Source of the DNA: Saccharomonospora glauca K62
GTDB lineage: Bacteria > Actinomycetota > Actinomycetes > Mycobacteriales > Pseudonocardiaceae
Direction of reading: 5' to 3'
Assembly (NCBI RefSeq): GCF_000243395.2
Contig: NZ_CM001484.1
Span: 2,011,202-2,075,201, forward strand
DNA: 64,000 bases
Positions 49,402 to 64,000 of this stretch are shown piece after piece. The notes beneath the pieces are model-generated. The model ran no database searches, had not been told where the DNA came from, and saw only the letters and a list, made by a program, of their open reading frames with translations. Made by a program: the position numbers and the translations under genes. Within the stretch, counting starts at the first letter, position 1, and each line of letters begins with the position of its first letter.

Positions 49402-50924
49402 ACGACGACGTGGTGTTGCTGGCCCCGGACGACGACGTGGCGGTGGTGCTGCGTGGCTGTGGCGAGGGGACCTCGCTGGCCGTACCGGGCCGCGAGCCCG
49501 TCGTGGCTCGCGGCGACATCCCCAGCGGGCACAAGGTCGCCCTGCGAGAGCTCGCCGCGGGGGAGCTCGTGCGCAAGTACGGCCACGTCATCGGCGTGGC
49601 GACGCGGAGTGTGGCCGCGGGTGAGCACGTACACCTCCACAACCTCGCGATGCCCGACGGAGCCTCCGCGCTCGCCTCGGAGGGCGCGGTGACGGAGGCC
49701 CCGGCGCCGCCCGTCGACCTGCGTCGGACGTTCGACGGCATCGTGCGGCCGGACGGGTCCGTGGCCACCCGCAACTACGTCGGTGTGCTGACCACCGTGA
49801 ACTGCTCCGCCACCGTGGCGCGGCGCATCGTGCGGCGCACGGAGGACGAGATCGCCGAACTCGACGGCGTGGACGGGGTGGTGGCGCTGACCCACGGCAC
49901 CGGCTGCGGCATGGCGATCGACGGCGACGGGTGGCGGCTGCTGCGCCGCACCCTGAGCGGCTACGCCCGGCACCCCAACATCGGCGCCCTCGTGGTGGTG
50001 GGACTCGGGTGCGAGGTCAACGCGGTCAGTTCCCTGATGTCCGAGCTGGGCGTGGCCGACCACGTGCCCGTGGAGTCCTACACCATCCAGGAGGCGGGCG
50101 GGACGGCCGACGCGATCGACCGGGGCGAGAAGCTGGTCCGCGACCTGGCGGCGCGGTTGGTGGGCACCCGACGCACGCGGGTCGGGGTCGAGCACCTGGT
50201 GCTGGGCCTGCAGTGCGGTGGGTCGGACGCCTGGTCGGGCCTGACCGCGAACCCCGCGCTCGGCGTGGCCTCCGACCTGCTGGTCGCCGCGGGCGGCACC
50301 AGCGTGCTCGGGGAGACGCCGGAGATCTACGGTGCCGAGCGGATGCTCGCGCAGCGAGCCGTGCGTCCGGAGGTGGCCGACGCGCTTCTGGACCGTATCG
50401 CCTGGTGGGAGCGCTACACCCGCGACAACGGCACCACATTGGACGGAAATCCCTCGCCCGGCAACAAAGAGGGCGGCATCACCACGATCCTGGAGAAGTC
50501 GCTGGGCGCGGTGGCCAAGGCCGGACGCAGCCCGCTCCGGGCCGTCTGCGGTTACGCCGAGCCGATCCCGACACCGGGCCTGGTCTTCATGGACACCCCC
50601 GGCTACGACCCCGTGTCGGTCACCGGGATGGTCGCGGGCGGAGCGAACCTCGTCTGCTTCACCACGGGCCGGGGGTCGGTGTTCGGCAGCCGTCCCGTGC
50701 CGACCGTGAAGCTGGCCGCGGGCGCCGACACCGCGTCGCGCATGGCCGGCGATATGGACGTGGACTGCTCGCCGATCGTCGAGGACGGCGTCGACGTGGC
50801 CGAGATGGGCAGACGGGTTTACGACCACCTGCTCGACGTGGCCTCCGGTCGGAAGAGTCTCAGCGAGCAACTCGGGTTGGGCGGCGAGGAAATGGTGCCG
50901 TGGCAGTTGGGGGCGGTGCTGTGA
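49398..50924 (+). CDS. uxaA: Altronate dehydratase family protein (UxaA-like)
   Basis: A 508-residue UxaA-family dehydratase: N-terminal SAF domain (1-75; VARGDIPSGHKVALREL) fused to the altronate/galactarate dehydratase domain (about 110-500; GIVRPDGSVATRNYVGVL, THGTGCGM, QCGGSDAWSG, GNKEGGITTI). It turns D-altronate into KDG, the galacturonate-branch counterpart of ManD. ATG 49398 has GGAGG at 49386-49390. Galactarate or other sugar-acid activity cannot be excluded. Confidence 0.88.
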   Translation: MNDDVVLLAPDDDVAVVLRGCGEGTSLAVPGREPVVARGDIPSGHKVALRELAAGELVRKYGHVIGVATRSVAAGEHVHLHNLAMPDGASALASEGAVTEAPAPPVDLRRTFDGIVRPDGSVATRNYVGVLTTVNCSATVARRIVRRTEDEIAELDGVDGVVALTHGTGCGMAIDGDGWRLLRRTLSGYARHPNIGALVVVGLGCEVNAVSSLMSELGVADHVPVESYTIQEAGGTADAIDRGEKLVRDLAARLVGTRRTRVGVEHLVLGLQCGGSDAWSGLTANPALGVASDLLVAAGGTSVLGETPEIYGAERMLAQRAVRPEVADALLDRIAWWERYTRDNGTTLDGNPSPGNKEGGITTILEKSLGAVAKAGRSPLRAVCGYAEPIPTPGLVFMDTPGYDPVSVTGMVAGGANLVCFTTGRGSVFGSRPVPTVKLAAGADTASRMAGDMDVDCSPIVEDGVDVAEMGRRVYDHLLDVASGRKSLSEQLGLGGEEMVPWQLGAVL

Positions 50925-52276
50925 GCGGGACCGTGCCGCGGCTGTCGCCCGCCACCGTCGACGTCCCGCACCGGCCCGACACCGTGCGTATCCTCCACCT
51001 CGGTCCCGGCGCGTTCCATCGGGCGCACCAGGCGGTGTTCACCGAGGACGCGGGTGGCGATTGGGGGATCTGCGGGGTCACCCAGCGCTCGCCCGCCGTC
51101 GTCGACCAGCTGCGACCTCAGGACTGCCTGTTCACGGTCGTGGAGCGATCCCGCACCACGACGTCGTGCCGTGTGGTCGGCACGATCCGCGACGTCCTCT
51201 TCGCCCGTGCCGAACCCGAGCGGCTGCGGGCGTACTTCACCGACCCGAAGGTGCGGATCGTCTCCCTCACGGTGACCGAGAAGGGCTACCGCCCCGACTC
51301 GGGGGTCATCGGCCAGCTCGTGGCCGGGCTGGAGGCGAGGCGGGCCACGTCGGAGGCCCCAATCACGATCCTGTCGTGCGACAACCTCACGGGTAACGGC
51401 GCCGTGGTGCGGTCGCGGGTGCTCGACGCCTGCGCCCGCCTGCCGCACGGGGACGCTCTCGCGTCCTGGATCACCGACCACGTGCGGTTCCCGAGCACGA
51501 TGGTCGATCGCATCGTGCCCGCCACCACCGACGCCGATCGTGCCGAGGTGCGGTCCGCGCTCGGCGTGCTCGACGAGGCCGCCGTGGTGGGCGAGCCGTT
51601 CCGGCAGTGGGTGATCGAGGACGACTTCGCCGCGGGCCGCCCCGCCTGGGAGGCCGTCGGGGCGCACCTGACCGACGACGTGGCTCCCTACGAGGCGGTG
51701 AAACTTCGGGTGCTCAACGCCACCCACTCGTTACTGGCCTACCGAGGCGCACTGGCGGGCTACGACACCATCGCCGAGGCCATCGCCGATCCGGTGCTGG
51801 CCGAGGAGGCGGCGGAGTTCGTGGAGCACGACGTGTTGCCGACCCTCACCGTTCCCGACGACGTCGACATCACCGCGTATCGCCGGCAGGTGCTGGAACG
51901 CTTCGCGAACCCGGCTCTGCGGCATCGCACCACGCAGGTCGCGATGGACGGGTCCCAGAAGCTGCCGTTGCGACTGCTCGGCACGATCCGAGACCGGTTG
52001 GCCGCGGGCGCGGTACCCGTCCGCGCGGCACGAGCCGTGGCCGCGTGGATGGTGTACGTGGCGGTGGGCAAGGATCGTGACGGCAGACCACTGCCGCTCG
52101 ACGACCCGCTCGCCGATCGGCTCCGCGCGGCGGTGGGGGAAGCCGGGGAGCCCCGCGCACTCGTCGACGGGTTGCTGTCGGTGCGGGAGGTGTTCGGCGA
52201 GGACCTGCCCGACCACGTGGCATTACGCGCAGCACTCATGGAGGCGGTGACGGAACTTTTAACGGCGGTGCGCTGA
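50921..52276 (+). CDS. uxuB: Fructuronate/tagaturonate reductase (mannitol dehydrogenase family)
   Basis: A 451-residue long-chain polyol dehydrogenase: N-terminal Rossmann HLGPGAFHRAHQAVF, and the catalytic VKLRVLNATHSLLAY with Lys and His. Reduces D-fructuronate to D-mannonate (UxuB) and possibly tagaturonate to altronate (UxaB); it is the only such reductase in the operon while both dehydratases are present. The GTG at 50921 overlaps the uxaA stop by 4 bases. Three TTA leucine codons (51731, 52223, 52259) are striking for a high-GC genome. Last gene of the operon, followed by a hairpin. Confidence 0.88.
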   Translation: MSGTVPRLSPATVDVPHRPDTVRILHLGPGAFHRAHQAVFTEDAGGDWGICGVTQRSPAVVDQLRPQDCLFTVVERSRTTTSCRVVGTIRDVLFARAEPERLRAYFTDPKVRIVSLTVTEKGYRPDSGVIGQLVAGLEARRATSEAPITILSCDNLTGNGAVVRSRVLDACARLPHGDALASWITDHVRFPSTMVDRIVPATTDADRAEVRSALGVLDEAAVVGEPFRQWVIEDDFAAGRPAWEAVGAHLTDDVAPYEAVKLRVLNATHSLLAYRGALAGYDTIAEAIADPVLAEEAAEFVEHDVLPTLTVPDDVDITAYRRQVLERFANPALRHRTTQVAMDGSQKLPLRLLGTIRDRLAAGAVPVRAARAVAAWMVYVAVGKDRDGRPLPLDDPLADRLRAAVGEAGEPRALVDGLLSVREVFGEDLPDHVALRAALMEAVTELLTAVR

Positions 52277-52503: not shown

Positions 52504-53139
52504 CTATGTCCGGTCGCTTTCGAGCAATGAGAGGGCGGCGTGGTCGAGGGTCTCCACCATCCACGTCAACAGTTCTTGATCGGCTCGCTCGGCCGCCTTC
52601 TGCCAGCGTTCTTTCTGTTGGTCGGGGAGTTTCATCTCGATGTGCACGGTTCTCGGTCGCGCGCTGGTGAGTTGCCGTTCCCCCCGAAGCTGCCGTCGGA
52701 GCTCGTTGCGGGACCAGCCGTTGATCTCGGCACGGGTCAGCCAGGCGTCCTGCTCGGCCTCGGGGAGACTGGTCACCTCCGCATGGTGCTGGAAGCTGAG
52801 TTTCGGATGTCGACGCTCCGGGGTGAAACGCCTGGCTACCCACGCGTAATTTCGCAGCGTCTGGTAGTCGAGCGACGTTTCGGCGATCGCCTGCTTGTAG
52901 CGGTTGGGGTAGTGGGTCTGGCCGTAGATCAACCAGTCGCCGAGCCACCACGCGGACGAGTCGGAGACCACGTGGATCTGCCGACCGAGGTTGCGCCATG
53001 CGTCGAGGGGCATGTCCTGAGGAAGGGAAAGCATGACTCGCTTCGTGCGGACCCTGCGCTCCGGGCCACGGTTCTCGCGTGTCGACGTGACGTGGCCGCT
53101 CGACGTGGTCGCGACCGCAGTGCCGTCTCTGCCCGACAT
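52504..53139 (-). CDS. LmbU-family transcriptional regulator
   Basis: A 211-residue regulator of the LmbU family, first described in the lincomycin cluster. The diagnostic region is DMPLDAWRNLGRQIHVVSDS with SAWWLGDWLIYGQ, followed by LDYQTLRNYAWVARRF, which holds the predicted HTH; the C-terminus is charged and helical. ATG 53139 has AGGGGG upstream; a GTG at 53151 is an alternative. Divergent from the SARP regulator gene (292 bases), it marks the left edge of the natural-product cluster and is probably a pathway-specific activator. Confidence 0.85.
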   Translation of the reverse strand: MSGRDGTAVATTSSGHVTSTRENRGPERRVRTKRVMLSLPQDMPLDAWRNLGRQIHVVSDSSAWWLGDWLIYGQTHYPNRYKQAIAETSLDYQTLRNYAWVARRFTPERRHPKLSFQHHAEVTSLPEAEQDAWLTRAEINGWSRNELRRQLRGERQLTSARPRTVHIEMKLPDQQKERWQKAAERADQELLTWMVETLDHAALSLLESDRT

Positions 53140-53431
53140 GGAATCGTGCACCCCCTATTCGTCCGAAAAACTCACCCTCGCGTCACGAGCTGATCGTCAG
53201 CCTGGCAGTCGTCCCTTGAGCGACGCCAAACGGAGGCCAAACGTCGAGGTGAGAACCGAGTTGTCCGTGGTTCGCTTCTCGTTCTTGGCCCCTTTGCCGC
53301 TCAACGTTTGGCGTGCGCCATGCATTCAAAAAACGAGAATTAACCCGATCGTGTATTCGATCACGTTAGGTTGTCACTTGTGGTCCGACGCAACGTCTGA
53401 CACACACTCGCTGGGGGAGCTGGATACGCTG
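53140..53431. promoter_or_regulatory. Divergent regulator promoter region with GCCAAACG repeats
   Basis: 292 bases separate the LmbU and SARP starts. GCCAAACG occurs at 53225-53232 and 53236-53243, exactly 11 bases apart, the period typical of SARP heptamer direct repeats. A third copy, inverted (CGTTTGGC), is at 53305-53312; with one more base, GCCAAACGT and ACGTTTGGC form a 9-base inverted pair spanning 53236-53312. The SARP-proximal 100 bases are AT-rich. Probably the shared control region for both regulators. Confidence 0.6.
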
Positions 53432-55291
53432 ATGACGACGCTCGGAGTGACGCTGTTCGGTCCGGTCTCGGTGCGCCGGGGGGAACGGGAGATTCCGCTG
53501 GGGCCACCCAAGCAGCGCTCGGTTTTCGCGGTGCTGGCCGCGCGCGCCGGAGAGGTGGTGCGACGCGAGGAACTTGTCAGAGCGGTCTGGGGAGTCGATG
53601 CTTCCCCCACGGCGATGAACAGTGTCTACACCTACGTGGCCCGGCTACGTAACCAGCTGGAGCCCTTTAGACGGCAACGGGCGCGCCCCGACCTGCTCGT
53701 CTCCGACAGCCTCGGGTACATGCTTCGGCTGGCGCCCGACGAAGTGGACACCAAGCGTTTCACGGCATATTTGCGACGAGCGCGCAAGCTTCAAGCGGAA
53801 CGGCTGCCGCGGGCGGCGATCGAGGAGATCGAGTCCGCACTCGCCTTGTGGCAAGGCCCACCGTTCGGTGGTGTGGTCGGTCCGTTCTTCGAGGCGGAGC
53901 ACGCGGCGCTGTCCGAGATGCGGCTGACCGCCATCGAGGATCGCGTTCACCTGCTGTACCAACTCGGCGGGGACCTTAGCGGGGAGCTCGCCGAGCTGTC
54001 GGCACTGGTTCGTCGGCACCCGTTGCGGGAAAGGCTGCGGTACGTGCTGATGCTCTGCCACCTGCAAGCGGGTACGCAGACCGAGGCGATCAGGGAGTAC
54101 AACGACTTCCGTACTCGGCTGGCCGACGAGCAAGGACTCGAACCGGGGGAACGACTGCAGCAGCTCTATGCGGAGGCACTGAAGTCCGCTCCGCGACGCG
54201 AAGGGGGCCGGCTCGTGAAACCCACGGGGTGGAGAACCGAGACCCCCCGGCCCCCCGTGCCGCTGGCGCAACTGACGCGGGACGTTCCCGACTTCACGGG
54301 ACGCAAGGCGGAGATCCGGCGACTGCACGAACTGGTCGACACCGCCACCGATCGCGGCGAGAGCGCCGTCGTCCTGATCAACGGTGTCCCCGGGGTCGGA
54401 AAGTCCGCACTCGCCGTCCACTTCGCCCATGAGCTCTCCACTCGTTTCCCCGACGGGCAGGTACAGCTGGATCTTCGCGGGTACGGAGCCGGGCAGCCGA
54501 TGCACCCCAGGGAGGCGCTGCATCGGCTGCTCGAAGCGCTGGGTGTTACCACGGCCCCGGACATGGACCCGGAGCGGCAGCGGGCCTTGCTGCACAGCCT
54601 GGTCGCGGGACGGAGACTGCTCATCCTGCTCGACAACGCGAGATGGGTGCAGCAGGTGCGGCCCTTGTTGCCGGGGGACTCCTCGTGCCTGGTCCTCGTC
54701 ACCAGCCGCAACGGGCTCGGAGGTCTGATCGCTCGGGACGGAGCTCGTCGACTCCGCCTCGACGGGATGAGGGTGGACGACGGTGTCGAGTTGTTCGGAC
54801 GGATCGCGGGGAGAGCTCTCGTCGCCAGTGCGTACCCCGCTGTGCGTGAACTCGTCGAAGCCTGCGGGGGACTTCCGCTGGCCCTCCGTATCGCGGCGGC
54901 CCAGACGGAGCTGTCTCCCTCACCGGAGCGCACGCTGGCGCTTTTCAACGGTGTGGACCTGCTTCACCGGCTCTCGGTACCCGGAGACGAACAGTCGTCA
55001 CTCATCACGGTGTTCGAGTGGTCGTACGCAGCGCTCCCGGAGCGAGCGCGCCGGATGTTCCGAGCCTTGGGCAGAGGGTCGGGAGCCGGGGTCACGCTTC
55101 GGACCGCCGCGGCCTTGACGGGCGAGTCGATCGAGGAGGCTCGGGAACACCTCGACATACTCGTCGACGCGGGTTTGGCGTACGAGCCGGTGCAGGACAG
55201 TCTACTTCTGACTCCACTGTTGTTCGCCTACGCTCGTTATCTGTACTTCCGGGAGTCGACCGACGAATCATGTCGGGCCGGCTCGTCTTGA
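53432..55291 (+). CDS. SARP-family (AfsR/DnrI-type) regulator with NB-ARC domain
   Basis: A 619-residue activator. N-terminal OmpR-type winged HTH (about 5-95; PLGPPKQRSVFAVLAARAGE, AMNSVYTYVARLRNQLEP), BTAD helical domain (about 100-245), then an NB-ARC-type ATPase domain (about 285-600) with P-loop NGVPGVGKSALA near residues 317-327 and LLILLDNA as Walker B. It lacks the C-terminal TPR domain of full-length AfsR, ending soon after the NB-ARC helices. ATG 53432 is where family sequence begins. Expected to activate the cluster by binding direct repeats, possibly with the LmbU-family partner. Confidence 0.9.
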   Translation: MTTLGVTLFGPVSVRRGEREIPLGPPKQRSVFAVLAARAGEVVRREELVRAVWGVDASPTAMNSVYTYVARLRNQLEPFRRQRARPDLLVSDSLGYMLRLAPDEVDTKRFTAYLRRARKLQAERLPRAAIEEIESALALWQGPPFGGVVGPFFEAEHAALSEMRLTAIEDRVHLLYQLGGDLSGELAELSALVRRHPLRERLRYVLMLCHLQAGTQTEAIREYNDFRTRLADEQGLEPGERLQQLYAEALKSAPRREGGRLVKPTGWRTETPRPPVPLAQLTRDVPDFTGRKAEIRRLHELVDTATDRGESAVVLINGVPGVGKSALAVHFAHELSTRFPDGQVQLDLRGYGAGQPMHPREALHRLLEALGVTTAPDMDPERQRALLHSLVAGRRLLILLDNARWVQQVRPLLPGDSSCLVLVTSRNGLGGLIARDGARRLRLDGMRVDDGVELFGRIAGRALVASAYPAVRELVEACGGLPLALRIAAAQTELSPSPERTLALFNGVDLLHRLSVPGDEQSSLITVFEWSYAALPERARRMFRALGRGSGAGVTLRTAAALTGESIEEAREHLDILVDAGLAYEPVQDSLLLTPLLFAYARYLYFRESTDESCRAGSS

Positions 55292-55484
55292 GCGTGCAGC
55301 GTCCTCCTTTTAGTTCTCGCCGTCAAGTACGGCGCTCCCCGAACCCGAGTTCACCCGATGGGGTTGCCAGCGAGTATGTGCTCGTCCATCATCGGCAGCA
55401 CGAACCGCGGGCCGATTCAGGGTCGGGGCATCGAGAGTCGGTGCGGCTCGAATCCGAATTTCACGGCGAACGGGTATTCGTGCG

Positions 55485-56096
55485 ATGACGATCAGTGAGA
55501 TGTCGCTGCTCAACACGTTTCGGATAACTCCGGAACGGCACCGTGACGAACGTGGTTCCTTTATTGAGGTGGTACGTTCGAACGCTCTTTCCGAGGTGAT
55601 CGGATACGAGTTCACGGTACGTCAGGCCAATTGCTCGTTGAGCGTGCGCAACACCATCCGAGGAATTCACACCACCGCTTTGCCGCCGGGGCAGGCCAAG
55701 CTGGTGACATGCGTCAGCGGCTCGATCCTCGACGTGGCCGTGGACCTCCGCGTCGGCTCGCCGACCTTCGGCCAGTACGAGATCACCAGGCAGGACGCCG
55801 ACACGGGGGTGTCGGTGTACCTGCCCGACGGCATCGGCCACGCCTTCATCGCCCTCACCGATAATGCCTGTGTCAACTACCTGTGCTCGGAGAAATACGT
55901 CCCCGGAACGATGATCGAGATCGATCCGCTGGACCCGGATATCGGCATACCGTGGAATTTGACCACCGAGCCGGTCATGTCCGACAAGGACGCCGCGGCC
56001 CCGAGTTTGAAGACCGCCGTGGCGAGAGGAATGTTGCCGACCTATGAGCAATGTCTCGCGCACTACGAGGCGCTGCGGCGGCGTTCGGCTGCCTGA
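55485..56096 (+). CDS. dTDP-4-keto-6-deoxyhexose 3,5- or 5-epimerase (RmlC family)
   Basis: A 203-residue cupin epimerase. Catalytic residues by count: His62 and Lys72 in IRGIHTTALPPGQAKLV, plus a Tyr near 138 (SEKYVPG); Arg59 and DVAVDLRVGSPTFGQYE are standard RmlC. The family epimerises dTDP-4-keto-6-deoxysugars at C3/C5 or C5 only. Sitting beside a sugar C-methyltransferase it is more likely a secondary-metabolite epimerase (EvaD/NovW type) than the housekeeping rhamnose enzyme. ATG 55485, or ATG 55500 as alternative. Confidence 0.87.
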   Translation: MTISEMSLLNTFRITPERHRDERGSFIEVVRSNALSEVIGYEFTVRQANCSLSVRNTIRGIHTTALPPGQAKLVTCVSGSILDVAVDLRVGSPTFGQYEITRQDADTGVSVYLPDGIGHAFIALTDNACVNYLCSEKYVPGTMIEIDPLDPDIGIPWNLTTEPVMSDKDAAAPSLKTAVARGMLPTYEQCLAHYEALRRRSAA

Positions 56097-56233
56097 GCCG
56101 AGGCCGTCCCGCTGGCGGGACACCGTTCCCGCGCTTTTTTCGTGAAAACGTGGTTCGCTTCTCCGGTCTTGAAACCCGGAGGGTCACATCATGGATGTCG
56201 AACCCCGTGTCCAACTCTTCCGTGAGAGGATTC

Positions 56234-59683
<3,450 letters not shown>

Positions 59684-59687
<4 letters not shown>

Positions 59688-61060
59688 CCGTCATCTCCCG
59701 GAACCGCAGGACGTGGCTGGGCCTCGGTGCGGGACTTCTCGTACTGGTTCTCGGCGTCGTCGTGTGGGCGGGCGGCACGGTGCGTTCGGAGGCCGGTGGT
59801 GGGGTCGACCCGCTCGCCCGGTTCCTGCTGGCCGTGGCGGTGATCCTCGTGGTGAGTCACGTCCTCGGGAGCGTGTTGCGGCGGGTCGGCCAACCCAGGG
59901 TGGTCGGCGAGATGCTCGGCGGGGTGATGTTGGGCCCGTCGGTGCTCGGTTCGATGTGGCCGGAGGCGATGCAGTGGCTGTTCACCGCAGATGCGCTGGG
60001 GCATCTCGACAAAGTGGGCCAGCTCGGGCTCGTCGTGTTCATGTTCCTCCTGGGATGCGAACTGCGGCTCGACCGGATCGACAGACCCGCCACGGTCGCG
60101 GCCACCGTGGCGGGGGGCACGGGGTTGCCGTTCGCCGTCGGAATCGGACTGGCGTGCGCTTTCGCCGGGTTGCTCTCACCGAGAGGTTTCACCGTGCCGT
60201 ACGCGTTGTTCCTGGGACTCGCGCTGTCGATCACCGCGTTGCCGGTACTGGCTCGGATCCTCCTCGACCTCAAGTTGGAGGAGACCGGTGTCGGCGTGCT
60301 GACGGTGTCGGCCGCCGCCATCGGCGACGGCGTGGCCTGGTTGGTGCTGACCGTGATCCTGACCGCCACGGGGCAAGGAACTCACGCCTCCGCCGCCGAG
60401 ACGGCCTACTTGGCCGCGGCCTTGGTCGTCGTGACCTTTCTCTGCGTGCGACCGGCGCTGGCGGTCCTGGTACGCAAGGTACGGTCGAAACAACTCCTCA
60501 CCGTGGTGCTGCTCGCCGGGGCGATCACCTTCTCGGCGGTGACCCAGGCGATCAACTTGCACCCCGTCATCGGCGCCTTCCTTTTCGGCGCCGTGGTACC
60601 GCGTGACTCCGAGCCCGTACGTCGAGTCGGTCACCAACTCCAGGGCTTCACGCTGATCGTGTTGCTCCCGGTGTTCTTCGCCGGGGTCGGTCTGAACACC
60701 TCGGTGGGTCTTCTCGGTGGTGACCTCGTCGCCTGGACGGTCTTCGGGACCTTGTTGGTCGCCTCGGTGACGGCCAAGTTCGTCGGGGCGGGAGGCGCCG
60801 CGCGGCTGACCGGCCTTCCGACCCGTCAGGCCGTATGGGTGGGGGCCGCGATGAATTGCCGTGGGGTCACCGAACTGGTCATCGCCGCGATAGGGTTCCA
60901 AGCCGGCCTGATCAACCAACTGGGCTTCACGATGTTGGTGCTTCTCGCGGTGATCACCACGGTCCTGAGCAATTGGGCGCTGCGATGGCTGAGCCCCGAC
61001 GGGGTCGCCCTCGACCGGAGTCGGGCTCCCATGGGATCGACAGGAAAGGACGCGAGATGA
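59684..61060 (+). CDS. Cation:proton antiporter (CPA2/Kef-type), possible self-resistance or export
   Basis: A 458-residue membrane protein of the sodium/hydrogen exchanger family (PF00999), 12-13 helices. Visible are VGEMLGGVMLGPSVLG, the half-helix block FMFLLGCELRLD, ITALPVLARILLDL, and the terminal MNCRGVTELVIAAIG. Coupled by 4-base overlaps to the flavin reductase and to rmlA. Halogenase/flavin reductase/antiporter neighbourhoods also occur in the rebeccamycin cluster (rebH, rebF, rebU), where the antiporter is thought to act in export or resistance; the same role is inferred here. Confidence 0.88.
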
Positions 61061-61929
61061 AAGGAATCGTCCTCGCCGGCGGCAACGGGACCCGGATGCA
61101 TCCACTGACGTTGGCGACGTCCAAGCAACTGCTGCCCGTCTACGACAAGCCGATGGTGTACTACCCGTTGTCCGTGCTGATGTTGGCGGGGCTGCGAGAC
61201 ATCCTGATCATCTCCAACCCGGAAACCCTGCCCGTACTTCGGGCCCTGTTGGGAGACGGGAGCAGATTCGGCCTGAACTTCAGTTACGCGGAACAGAAGG
61301 AGCCGCGCGGCATCGCGGAGGCGTTCCTCATCGGTGAGAAGTTTCTCGACGGCGGGCCCTCGGCGCTCATCCTGGGAGACAACCTCTTCCACGGTGCCGG
61401 CTTTCCGAAGCTGCTCCGGTCCGCACGGCGGGAGCTCGACGGCTGCACGTTGTTCGGATACCCGGTCTCGGACCCCGGACGATTCGGCATCGGTGAGGTC
61501 GACGCCGAGGGAAACTTGGTGTCGTTGGAGGAGAAGCCTTCGAAACCGCGTTCCGACAACGCCATCGTGGGGTTGTACTTCTACGACTCCGAGGTGGTGG
61601 ACATCGCCAAGGAACTCACCCCGTCGGCCCGCGGCGAACTGGAGATCACGGAGGTCAACCAGGTCTACCTGAAGCAAGGACGGGCGAAGTTGATTCGGCT
61701 CGGTCGGGGTTACACGTGGCTCGACGCGGGGACGCACGACTCGCTCCTTTCGGCCAGCCAGTACGTGCAGACGATTCAGCATCGGCAGGGGGTCCAGGTG
61801 GCATGCCTGGAGGAGATCGCCCTGAGACTCGGCCACATCGATTCGCAGCGTTGCTACGAGCTGGGCGAGCGGATGAAGAACTCCGACTACGGCCGGTACC
61901 TGATGCAGGTGGCTCAGGAAGTCGGTTGA
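61057..61929 (+). CDS. rmlA: Glucose-1-phosphate thymidylyltransferase
   Basis: A 290-residue RmlA converting glucose-1-phosphate and dTTP to dTDP-glucose. GGNGTRMHPLT and KQLLPVYDKPMVYYPLS are the nucleotide-binding signature, GDNLFHG holds the metal Asp, and LEEKPSKPRSDNAIVGLYFY closes the sugar site. It starts the dTDP-deoxysugar route used by the epimerase and C-methyltransferase. Start overlaps the antiporter stop by 4 bases. Its 3' end overlaps the convergent PH-domain gene by 16 bases. Confidence 0.94.
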   Translation: MKGIVLAGGNGTRMHPLTLATSKQLLPVYDKPMVYYPLSVLMLAGLRDILIISNPETLPVLRALLGDGSRFGLNFSYAEQKEPRGIAEAFLIGEKFLDGGPSALILGDNLFHGAGFPKLLRSARRELDGCTLFGYPVSDPGRFGIGEVDAEGNLVSLEEKPSKPRSDNAIVGLYFYDSEVVDIAKELTPSARGELEITEVNQVYLKQGRAKLIRLGRGYTWLDAGTHDSLLSASQYVQTIQHRQGVQVACLEEIALRLGHIDSQRCYELGERMKNSDYGRYLMQVAQEVG

Positions 61930-62411
61930 GGACGGGTGGCCCCGGTGGTGCGGGTGAGCTGTTCGGCCAGTTCCTCCGCGAGTGAGCTCTCCAGGCCCTC
62001 GACCTTGAGCGCTCCTTTCGCCGATGCAGTGGTCACCACCAAGGTGGCCAGGCCGAAGTGCCGTTGAAGCGGACCGCGCACGGTGTCGACCGTCTGGATC
62101 CGGGAGAGGGGAGCCACATGCCAGCGTTGCCAGAAATAGCCGACGCGCACGTGTACCGCGGTGTCGGTGATCTCCCAACGATGGACCGCGAACCACCACC
62201 GTGGCAGCAGGATGACGGCCGGAACGGCCAGAACGGCGACCACCGCGGTGGGGCCGAACAGCCAGGGGCCGCCCATCTTGAGCACGCCGGGCACCACGGC
62301 GCAGACCACCAGCACGGCCACGGCCGCGGCGAACAGGCCGGCGACCTTGGTACGCCACCACTGGACGGTGGCCCGGTGGAACCGGTTTCTCGGCGGCTTG
62401 GTCGGGGGCAT
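61914..62411 (-). CDS. Bacterial PH-domain membrane protein (bPH2/YdbS-like)
   Basis: A 165-residue protein: charged N-terminus, two membrane helices (about 25-45 and 50-70), then a PH-like domain WWFAVHRWEITDTAVHVRVG, SRIQTVDTVRGPLQRHFGL (PF03703 pattern). Function of this family is unknown. ATG 62411 has AAGGAG upstream. It lies on the opposite strand inside the natural-product cluster, so it may be a chromosomal gene caught between cluster genes. Confidence 0.8.
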   Translation of the reverse strand: MPPTKPPRNRFHRATVQWWRTKVAGLFAAAVAVLVVCAVVPGVLKMGGPWLFGPTAVVAVLAVPAVILLPRWWFAVHRWEITDTAVHVRVGYFWQRWHVAPLSRIQTVDTVRGPLQRHFGLATLVVTTASAKGALKVEGLESSLAEELAEQLTRTTGATRPQPTS

Positions 62412-62472
62412 GGAACTCCTTCACCAATGGCGACCGCGATGTGCGCAGTGTAAGGCATCGATACCGAACGTC

Positions 62473-62499
62473 ACCGACATCGTGCATCGGGATGTCGGT
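62473..62499. promoter_or_regulatory. Inverted repeat upstream of the GNAT gene
   Basis: ACCGACATC (62473-62481) and GATGTCGGT (62491-62499), perfect 9-base arms, 9-base loop, in the 108-base divergent region between the PH-domain and GNAT genes and 21 bases before the GNAT start. Could be an operator or a 5' leader hairpin. Confidence 0.45.
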
Positions 62500-62519
62500 C
62501 GGCGAGAGAGGCAGGGGTT

Positions 62520-63053
62520 GTGGCAGCCAAGCGAGTGATCTTTCCCGTGACGTCGACCCGACGTGTGGAGTTGTGTCCGGCGACGGCCGCGGACCAGTCG
62601 GAATTCTTTCGCACGGTGTTGCGGACGGGCATCGAGAGCGTGCGGCCGATGGCACGCGCGGATGGAGTGGGACCGCGTCCGAACGCGGCCTTCACGGTCC
62701 GCAACCGAATGAGCGGGGAACAGCTCGGGTTCAGCCTGCTGTTCGGCCTCGACGAGGCCGGACACATTCGTTGCGGAACGTATCTCGATCCGGAACTCAA
62801 CCGATTGGGACTCGGCGGGGACGCCATCGGTTTGACCATCAACTACACCTTTGCGCAATTCAATGTGGATCGAGTGATCACGGAGACCACCGAGGCGAGT
62901 CTCGGCTCGTTCGGGATGCGGCCGGGGGACGAACGGGTGCTCACGGTCCTTCCCGATTTCCTGTACTTCCGGGGCCGTTACTGGAACCTCTACGGTTTCC
63001 AGGTGGAACGGCACGAGTGGGTCAGCGACGACCAGGAGATCGTCGATGATTAA
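62520..63053 (+). CDS. GNAT-family N-acyltransferase (RimJ/RimL-like)
   Basis: A 177-residue GNAT protein: RRVELCPATAADQSEFF at the start, the beta-alpha core GFSLLFGLDEAGHIRCGTYL, acyl-CoA loop NRLGLGGDAIGL in the usual place (R/Q-x-x-G-x-G/A), and NVDRVITETTEASLGSFGM. The predicted partner is an amine in a protein, sugar or pathway intermediate. GTG 62520 has a GGGG ribosome site. It precedes the AMP-ligase by 152 bases, so both probably belong to the cluster. Confidence 0.75.
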   Translation: MAAKRVIFPVTSTRRVELCPATAADQSEFFRTVLRTGIESVRPMARADGVGPRPNAAFTVRNRMSGEQLGFSLLFGLDEAGHIRCGTYLDPELNRLGLGGDAIGLTINYTFAQFNVDRVITETTEASLGSFGMRPGDERVLTVLPDFLYFRGRYWNLYGFQVERHEWVSDDQEIVDD

Positions 63054-63205
63054 GGTGTCGTCGTTGTCTCGCCGGCGGGACAACGACCTGGCCACGGGGT
63101 AATACCTGCTATACGATTCGTTCGCTCGTTTTCCTCGCCTCGTCCTCGCAGAGGATTCTTTTCATCCGGGATTCGTGCCTCAATGGAACCGAGGAGCGGT
63201 TTGTC

Positions 63206-64000
63206 GTGACGTACTCCGAACTATCGCCGGAGGAACTCCTGGCCGAGGGTTTCTTCTCACCGCGGATCACCGAGGAACCCTGGGTGGTGCGCTGGGACCG
63301 GTTCGACGGCGACCTCGCAGCCATCGAGGCCATGGTGCTCGACGCCCTCCCGGAGACGGTGGTGTTCCACACCTCCGGAACCACCGGCGCCAGTCGGGCG
63401 TGGTACCGAAAGAAGCAATTCCTCTGGGCCGAGGCCTCGATGCTGGCGAGGCTGTTGGCTCCCCGAGCGCCCGAAGCGGCGTTGTCCTTCGTGCACCCGA
63501 AACATCTCTACGGCGCGTTGAGCAGCGTTCTCGTGCCCGCGAGGCTCGGTATCCCGGTCTGGTACCGACCGCAGGTCACGGGCCAGCTGCCCCCGGTCGA
63601 CGAGCACCGTCACTGGGCGGTCATGGCCATCCCCTGGGTCTTCGCCGTGTTGCGACGGCACATGGCCTGGATTCGCTCCCTCGACCAGGTCACCGTGCTG
63701 CACGCGAGCGGCATGATCCCCGATGCCGCACTGCATTTCCTCGCCGAGGCGGGGCCGGAGCGCGCCCGCATCATCGAGGTCTTCGGCGCGACCGAGTCCG
63801 GTGGGGTCGGCACCCGGCAGTGGTCCGAGGGCGATCCGCCCGACTGGTCACTGATCGACGACGTCTCCTTCGTCGATCCGGTGGTACCGGGTGAGGGGGA
63901 GGTCCCGTTGAAGATCCGCAGTCCACGGCTTGCCTTCCTCGGGGAGAACGAGGCTCCGGACCACTGTCAGCTGGACGACTACGTACAGCGCCTCTCCGAC
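63206..64000 (+). CDS. AMP-forming acyl/aryl ligase (3' partial)
   Basis: Open from GTG 63206 (GAGGAG about 10 bases upstream) to the window end, 265 codons, no stop. ANL-superfamily ligase: P-loop FHTSGTTGASRAWYRK (residues 54-69) and EVFGATESGG (about 192-201) are core motifs A3 and A5. The P-loop lies about 100 residues closer to the N-terminus than normal, so most of the N-terminal subdomain is missing or this is a compact subfamily. It would activate a carboxylic acid as adenylate, perhaps the halogenated tryptophan-derived acid or an acyl starter; substrate unassigned. Confidence 0.85.
   Translation, partial: MTYSELSPEELLAEGFFSPRITEEPWVVRWDRFDGDLAAIEAMVLDALPETVVFHTSGTTGASRAWYRKKQFLWAEASMLARLLAPRAPEAALSFVHPKHLYGALSSVLVPARLGIPVWYRPQVTGQLPPVDEHRHWAVMAIPWVFAVLRRHMAWIRSLDQVTVLHASGMIPDAALHFLAEAGPERARIIEVFGATESGGVGTRQWSEGDPPDWSLIDDVSFVDPVVPGEGEVPLKIRSPRLAFLGENEAPDHCQLDDYVQRLSD

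Follow-up and report, generated by a model that had tools for sequence, protein, structure and literature searches.

Saarvienin A founded a family of antibiotics, reported in 2025, that is active against vancomycin-resistant enterococci; its core, Dap-ClTrp-Dap-Phe (Dap, L-2,3-diaminopropionate; ClTrp, chlorotryptophan), is closed by a ureido bridge, carries a sugar chain and contains neither Gly nor Asn (PMC12171682). The corresponding cluster, BGC14 of Amycolatopsis sp. YIM10, consists of two nonribosomal peptide synthetase (NRPS) genes, a tryptophan halogenase, a methyltransferase, two Dap genes, an aromatic lyase and an AMP-binding protein, seven eremosamine and methylation genes and four glycosyltransferases (PMC12171682). 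Its six-module NRPS did not fit the product; the module surplus has been attributed to skipping at a condensation (C) domain with the motif CHxxxDG (Cys for the first His), and the main text does not address where the urea bridge comes from (PMC12171682). Here we describe a related cluster at the right end of a 64,000-nucleotide stretch of Saccharomonospora glauca K62 (positions 2011202-2075201 of contig C1; genome of 4.56 Mb, two contigs), hereafter the window. The cluster spans ~51 kb (52504-103412), starting in the window and ending beyond it; the sequence was followed contiguously to window coordinate 128799, and coordinates above 64000 refer to this extension. Genes were called with a simple codon model, all 40 called proteins between 52504 and 104795 were scanned against Pfam, and 30 of those 40 against NCBIfam. 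We are highly confident that a saarvienin-type biosynthetic cluster begins in the right part of the window, and this cluster, denoted W below, very probably encodes a relative of saarvienin A.

Every gene class published for BGC14 is represented in W: a tryptophan halogenase, a Dap synthesis pair, an aromatic lyase with an AMP-binding protein and, for the sugars, a 2,3-dehydratase, an aminotransferase, a C-methyltransferase, an epimerase, a ketoreductase and four glycosyltransferases. The exception is the four plus two NRPS modules of BGC14, a trait that is not clearly family-wide; W has two plus two. An orthologous cluster (Y) is located in a genome of the same family, G148 (C1:4703374-4762928), with identities to W of 78% for the halogenase, 77% for the lyase, 80% for the DegT aminotransferase, 75% for SbnA, 74% for the DPTCase-like enzyme (DPTCase, diaminopropionate transcarbamylase) and 60-80% for most shared genes. 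This genome is probably that of the saarvienin producer YIM10, because its two NRPS genes encode four and two modules, respectively, the second NRPS carries CHAILDG, matching the published Cys-for-His motif, and it falls in one genus group with G099, the halogenase of which has the same position as that of Amycolatopsis antarctica. Positions shared with loci of A. antarctica and Sciscionella likewise assign W to the Pseudonocardiaceae. A halogenase scan returned 38 loci, three of which (L011, L013 and L014) have neighboring cluster genes of the W type; these belong to Actinoplanes sandaracinus (P), Salinispora pacifica CNR114 (S) and Herbidospora galbida (H), respectively, and no product is named for them in the genome records.

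All four relatives (Y, S, H and P) encode the halogenase, flavin reductase, antiporter, C-methyltransferase (73-74% identity to W), 2,3-dehydratase (68-71%), DegT (73-80%), lyase (69-77%), ligase (46-69%), RmlA, LmbU and two small proteins, orfA and orfB. Three of the four also have SbnA, SbnB and the DPTCase-like gene, P being the exception; whole-assembly searches of P yielded at best 39% identity for SbnA and 34% for the carbamoyltransferase, none close (SbnB was not searched genome-wide), and the idea that a contig end hides the SbnA and DPTCase-like genes was dropped. The MppJ-like methyltransferase is found in Y and H and the aminotransferase in Y only, and an ABC exporter, an FAD monooxygenase and a MaoC/SDR gene are common to W and Y alone; W is therefore nearest to Y in gene content. 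Clusters S, H and P resemble W in the halogenase, sugar genes, lyase, ligase, orfA and orfB (3/3) and in the Dap and DPTCase-like genes (2/3), but lack counterparts of the monooxygenase, the MaoC/SDR protein and the aminotransferase. Unlike W, S and H have six modules and a different A2-position code, P has two modules, and no SARP gene was found in the G148 stretch.

A likely source of the urea carbon is encoded directly 3' of NRPS2 in W, Y, S and H. In W, this gene (93011-93928, plus strand) encodes a carbamoyltransferase of the OTC family (202 bits to the best OTCase) which carries TRWQTTG and HDLP where OTCases have DxxxSMG and HCLP and retains the carbamoyl-phosphate residues STRT; on these active-site motifs, an ordinary ornithine carbamoyltransferase was rejected. 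A review, in the section drawn on here, gives the TRWQTTG loop and HDLP as features of DPTCase, which produces beta-ureidoalanine in the zwittermicin and viomycin pathways, and describes the motifs of DPTCase and DBTCase as hard to tell apart (PMC4581275). The signature, i.e., (T/S)RWQTTG, HDLP and the kept carbamoyl-phosphate site, is complete in the W protein. The motifs are the same as in the zwittermicin and viomycin enzymes, but the W enzyme is tied to a peptide whose known relative joins two Dap residues through a urea bridge. TRWQTTG and HDLP are invariant in all six aligned cluster carbamoyltransferases. A scan of 390 genomes of the family (threshold E <= 1e-70) identified DPTCase-like proteins in 63, and beta-ureidoalanine peptides may accordingly be common in this family. 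Twenty extra loci were read with ~20 kb on either side, for a total of 26; the exact (T/S)RWQTTG loop is present in 14 of the 20, and HDLP is paired with an RW loop in 19.

The adenylation (A) domain of the first W module points in the same direction. Its code, DAWQFATIDK, recurs in the same-place modules of S and H and, with one change, in Y (DAWQLATIDK); clusters of two further genomes, G342 and G074, which have the DPTCase-like gene and none of the sugar genes of W, also carry DAWQ(F/T)ATIDK. Among the extra loci, DAWQFATIDK occurs in 6/20, which are 6 of the 11 with at least 61% identity and none of the 9 below; three others have DA(T/S)QFAL(I/V)DK, one has DAWQFGLIDK, and three have no A domain. 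Overall, DAWQ(F/L/T)ATIDK is found at 12 of the 26 DPTCase-like loci and in none of 33 control A domains, which represent 18 of 35 halogenase loci; this control is imperfect in that its flanks were 10 kb, as against ~20 kb for the DPTCase-like loci, and in that it contains many near-identical Streptomyces clusters and an Amycolatopsis antarctica locus that is also treated separately. In two genomes, again where no DPTCase-like gene is present, the code is likewise absent (0/9 in G238, with the near code DAWQSGTIEK, and 0/3 in A. antarctica, with DAWQAGFVDK). beta-Ureidoalanine is a glutamine isostere. The A1 code resembles DAWQFGLIDK, which is tabulated as a glutamine code (PMC2866473), and glutamine does not occur in saarvienin A, which has two Dap residues (PMC12171682). 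The DPTCase signature after NRPS2, together with a glutamine-like A1 code that co-occurs with such genes, suggests that beta-ureidoalanine made by the DPTCase-like enzyme supplies the ureido carbon. Among the matches listed for ureidoalanine, carbamoyltransferase and ureido linkage, no title or abstract opening describes such a route to a urea macrocycle, and both this link and the four-module NRPS described below go beyond the main text of PMC12171682. The code itself might serve as a handle for finding further ureido peptides.

The NRPS of W consists of NRPS1 (80812-85764) and NRPS2 (85776-93005), both on the plus strand, with two modules each, i.e., one for each core residue of saarvienin. 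NRPS1 matches modules 3-4 of Y (A1 65%, A2 63%) and NRPS2 matches modules 5-6; the A2 codes are nearly equal (DPEAVALIAK in W, DPEAIALIFK in Y). All three fully mapped relatives, Y, S and H, have six modules, and P has just two, coded like modules 1 and 6, perhaps an assembly effect. What is absent from W are modules 1-2, whose codes, DILQLGLVWK and DLTKVGSVAK in both Y and S, each altered at one position in H, we take to read Gly and Asn; no close copy of these modules is encoded elsewhere in the genome, where matches outside the cluster reach at most 46% and mostly at most 43%. The domain held responsible for skipping belongs to the last module, which is kept in all five clusters; in W it reads HHAVLDG, as opposed to CHAILDG in Y. 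Given four modules for four core residues, the simplest reading places the surplus in modules 1-2, and the module blamed for skipping in the published account may be the wrong one, unless W itself has been reduced or is in decay. The idea that four modules suffice for the ureido core, that the ring closes by loss of ammonia, and that the six-module relatives add a removable Gly-Asn leader, with the cap attached in trans, is tentative and, taken as a whole, rather less likely than not. Five relatives' proteins that are apparently absent from W, one of them truncated at a locus end (139/220 aa), include no candidate leader peptidase, which is not evidence of absence.

The thioesterase of NRPS2 (~92151-93005) has Cys in place of the usual Ser nucleophile, in the motif GWC(G/A)S(S/T)G, in all five clusters (W, Y, S, H and P), and is a candidate for unusual release chemistry. 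Saarvienin has D-Phe, yet no E domain is seen in W.

The halogenase (57559-59097, plus strand) has 512 residues with Lys75, Glu354 and the motifs GGGTAGW and WMWTIP, which fit the GxGxxG and WxWxIP patterns of PyrH-type enzymes, and is 75-79% identical to its orthologs in all four relatives. Its likeness to PyrH had been noticed in a first-pass annotation of the window and is confirmed by alignment: PyrH (2wet) is the closest solved halogenase, at 908 bits and gap-free across 510 residues, followed by a further chain that bears the title Trp 5-halogenase (693), two Trp halogenases whose titles give no position (645), Trp 6-halogenases (637 to 401), RebH (384) and PrnA (383 bits), and the protein does not group with non-tryptophan enzymes. 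Judging from these sequence comparisons, it most likely chlorinates tryptophan at C5. Saarvienin A contains (2S,3R)-beta-methyl-chlorotryptophan with the chlorine at 'C-9' in the numbering of the paper (PMC12171682), and we equate this position with indole C5. As to the methyl group, streptonigrin offers a precedent, in the part of the work cited: the aminotransferase StnR and the methyltransferase StnQ1, without the cupin StnK3, yield (2S,3R)-beta-methyltryptophan (PMC4742848). A comparable pair is present in W, an aminotransferase (101158-102366) and a C-methyltransferase (102411-103412), both on the plus strand, and none of the 40 called proteins has a Cupin-family Pfam match. The methyltransferase is closest to solved MppJ (407 bits), the substrate of which is presumably phenylpyruvate. 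A match to 2-ketoarginine methyltransferase amounts to 62 bits against a cutoff of 425, and a beta-methylarginine product was rejected on these grounds.

From the observed gene content, synteny, halogenase class, DPTCase signature, module count and code co-occurrence, we propose the following pathway, in which all of the chemistry is predicted, the closing of the ring and the attachment of the cap most of all. The halogenase and its flavin reductase would chlorinate tryptophan, most likely at C5, and the aminotransferase and the MppJ-like methyltransferase would then probably beta-methylate the (chloro)tryptophan via the 2-keto acid. SbnA and SbnB would produce Dap, part of which the DPTCase-like enzyme would carbamoylate to beta-ureidoalanine, a glutamine look-alike to be loaded by module 1. 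The four modules would join beta-ureidoalanine, (beta-methyl-)chlorotryptophan, Dap and a fourth, probably aromatic, residue, and the side-chain amine of the module-3 Dap could displace ammonia from the ureido group of residue 1, producing a saarvienin-type urea bridge. An ammonia-lyase, a stand-alone ligase, the carrier-like protein and a GNAT-like protein might produce and install a 4-hydroxyphenyl acid cap, which the four glycosyltransferases would extend with a chain including eremosamine-type sugars. We consider this whole chain, from cluster type through chemistry, moderately probable. W is a real and probably complete cluster with a variant NRPS in a genus other than that of the saarvienin producer; a second cluster with one module per residue and a beta-ureidoalanine-type enzyme makes both the module misfit and the bridge origin testable with single enzymes.

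Several observations weigh against parts of this proposal. No product is known from the strain, and no label identifies G148 as YIM10. The A4 codes differ (DVMQVGMMFK in W, DVLIIGMVYK in Y), so that residue 4 may not be phenylalanine; 5uao, also titled Trp 5-halogenase, aligns at just 236 bits, which counts against a simple Trp-5 assignment; and the MppJ likeness leaves the methyl position uncertain, as the methyl might be on another residue. Some of the extra loci may not encode DPTCases, given the incomplete conservation of the exact loop, and 14 of the 26 DPTCase-like loci show no A1-type code within the stretch read. No enzyme for urea ring closure was found. This last point, along with the closeness of the A1 code to that of glutamine and the on-NRPS formation of the link in other ureido peptides (reportedly the mechanism in anabaenopeptins), would also fit a functional family member in which the urea carbon does not come from DPTCase, residue 1 being glutamine or plain Dap and the carbonyl arriving via a C domain or bicarbonate. 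We regard this as quite improbable: the position of the DPTCase-like gene directly after NRPS2 is the same in four clusters, the A1-type code recurs beside such genes in clusters of other architecture, and saarvienin A has Dap at two positions and glutamine at none.

The reduced NRPS could instead mark a decaying, non-functional remnant of a six-module cluster that lost modules 1-2, which have no close copy elsewhere in the genome. PHIVTDE replaces the HHIVCDV of Y in the second C domain of W, a drifted motif that also tells against our proposal, and a 144-aa piece of a DDE-type transposase (64758-65192, plus strand) lies between the ligase and ammonia-lyase genes. Still, the C motif retains its second His and its Asp, NRPS1 begins at its A domain only some 20 nt after the MbtH stop codon, and the rest of the called genes in the cluster form open frames, mostly near ortholog length; decay thus appears unlikely to us, albeit less so than the other alternatives. 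The pyrroindomycin-like product suggested in the first-pass annotation, presumably a polyketide, can be set aside almost completely. The halogenase is indeed closest to PyrH and deoxysugar genes are present, but the context in W is that of an NRPS glycopeptide: no polyketide synthase domain was detected in any of the 40 called proteins between 52504 and 104795, and the cluster contains two complete NRPS genes among saarvienin-type neighbors. What stands of that prediction is a probable glycoside with a chlorotryptophan unit, on a short NRPS peptide related to saarvienin. A looser parallel is biffamycin A, likewise a small glycosylated NRPS tetrapeptide with chlorinated tryptophan (5-chloro-4-methoxytryptophan) and a halogenase/flavin reductase pair, but, in the portion of the report considered here, with one mannose, a SurE-type cyclase and an E domain and without Dap or a urea bridge (PMC13285481).

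The remaining cluster genes in the window agree with the first-pass annotation, and profile matches recover each gene it named. The left cluster edge is plausibly set by the LmbU-family regulator (52504-53139, minus strand; NF038070, 235.5 bits, cutoff 125; orthologs in 4/4 relatives, 46-63%), since the preceding gene (50921-52276) encodes a mannitol dehydrogenase. On the plus strand, it is followed by a SARP-family regulator with an NB-ARC-type ATPase part (53432-55291; BTAD, 116 bits, and NB-ARC; counterparts in S and P), an RmlC-type NDP-sugar 3,5-epimerase (55485-56096; PF00908, 171.6 bits) and a sugar C-methyltransferase (56195-57463; PF08421/PF08484), which we take to be of EvaC type by role. 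The halogenase, the flavin reductase (59094-59687; PF01613, 127.7 bits), a Na/H exchanger family antiporter (59684-61060; PF00999, 156.3 bits) and the glucose-1-phosphate thymidylyltransferase RmlA (61057-61929; TIGR01207, 422.6 bits, above cutoff) are joined by three ATGA junctions, i.e., 4-nt overlaps. Exactly such overlaps occur in 20 of 70 same-strand neighbor pairs in the 129-kb stretch and are thus unremarkable by themselves. Between RmlA and the ligase, two genes absent from the earlier annotation encode a bacterial PH-domain protein (61914-62411, minus strand; PF03703, 67.9 bits; 65% identity in Y, 41% in S, 44% in P) and a GNAT-like protein (62520-63053, plus strand) with a weak PF13302 match (21.0 bits, below the cutoff of 25.4) and counterparts in Y, S and P (49-63%). 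The stand-alone AMP-forming ligase (63206-64534, plus strand; PF00501, 32.1 bits, cutoff 29.9) crosses the window end and has no PDB match at E 0.001.

Beyond the window, where sugar dehydratase, glycosyltransferase and scaffold genes had been predicted, no housekeeping genes follow directly, and the two NRPS genes and four glycosyltransferases (69839-71128, 95048-96313 and 96316-97611 on the minus strand; 99764-101164 as called, true start probably near 99860, on the plus strand) are indeed found. The dehydratase prediction holds for the NDP-hexose 2,3-dehydratase (74672-76072, minus strand; 507 bits) but not for the dTDP-glucose 4,6-dehydratase RmlB, which is encoded outside the cluster, ~1.4 Mb away on the chromosome. 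Together with the DegT aminotransferase (76131-77240, minus strand; 390 bits), the C-methyltransferase, two 3,5-epimerases (the second at 74026-74637, minus strand) and an NAD-epimerase-family ketoreductase, the 2,3-dehydratase forms the set for a 3-amino-3-C-methyl deoxysugar of the eremosamine type. The seeming absence of the ketoreductase was an error: missed by the gene caller, it was recovered by search (~98838-99842, plus strand; start picked by hand).

Cap formation would involve the MIO-type aromatic ammonia-lyase (65207-66715, plus strand; 371 bits) and the carrier-like orfB (78229-78552, plus strand). The latter has 107 aa, an invariant D-x-D-S-F in 5/5 clusters and no Pfam match; its structure model (pLDDT 84) finds mostly acyl carrier proteins as top matches (best E 0.29, none below 0.001). 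A carrier function of orfB is likely. The GNAT-like protein at 62520-63053 is a candidate acyltransferase for the cap. The FAD monooxygenase (68566-69816, minus strand) and the MaoC-like/SDR fusion (71435-72934, plus strand) may convert a coumaroyl-type cap into the saarvienin hydroxy acid. Upstream of NRPS1, the plus strand encodes SbnA (78575-79585) and SbnB (79561-80577), both above cutoff, and MbtH (80590-80790). The other cluster genes encode, on the plus strand, the ABC exporter (66742-68550), a SAM methyltransferase (94304-95026) and an aldo/keto reductase (97834-98799) and, on the minus strand, a GFO/IDH oxidoreductase (72976-73938) and the GNAT-like orfA (77280-77870). The cluster end was placed at 103412 because neither of the two genes that follow, AHSA1 and ArsR-like, is matched in any of the ten compared stretches.

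The wider comparison includes a few other arrangements. G342, of the same genus (L094-L097, C1 ~1766900-1796750), and G074 (L115-L118, C1 ~1235800-1269200) contain a second kind of cluster, with a PyrH-like halogenase (76-77%), a DPTCase-like enzyme (56-57%), SbnA (56-60%), a different NRPS with DAWQ(F/T)ATIDK and no deoxysugar genes, which perhaps makes non-glycosylated chlorotryptophan/beta-ureidoalanine peptides. In a stretch of G271 (contig C88, L125-L126; same family), six A-domain codes nearly equal those of H, and a carbamoyltransferase shares 69% identity with that of W; there is no halogenase match in this stretch, which is possibly a non-chlorinated saarvienin relative. In P (L106-L110; C37:75874-81480 and C37:40450-54513), eleven consecutive glycosyltransferase-like genes are seen, either real or an assembly effect.

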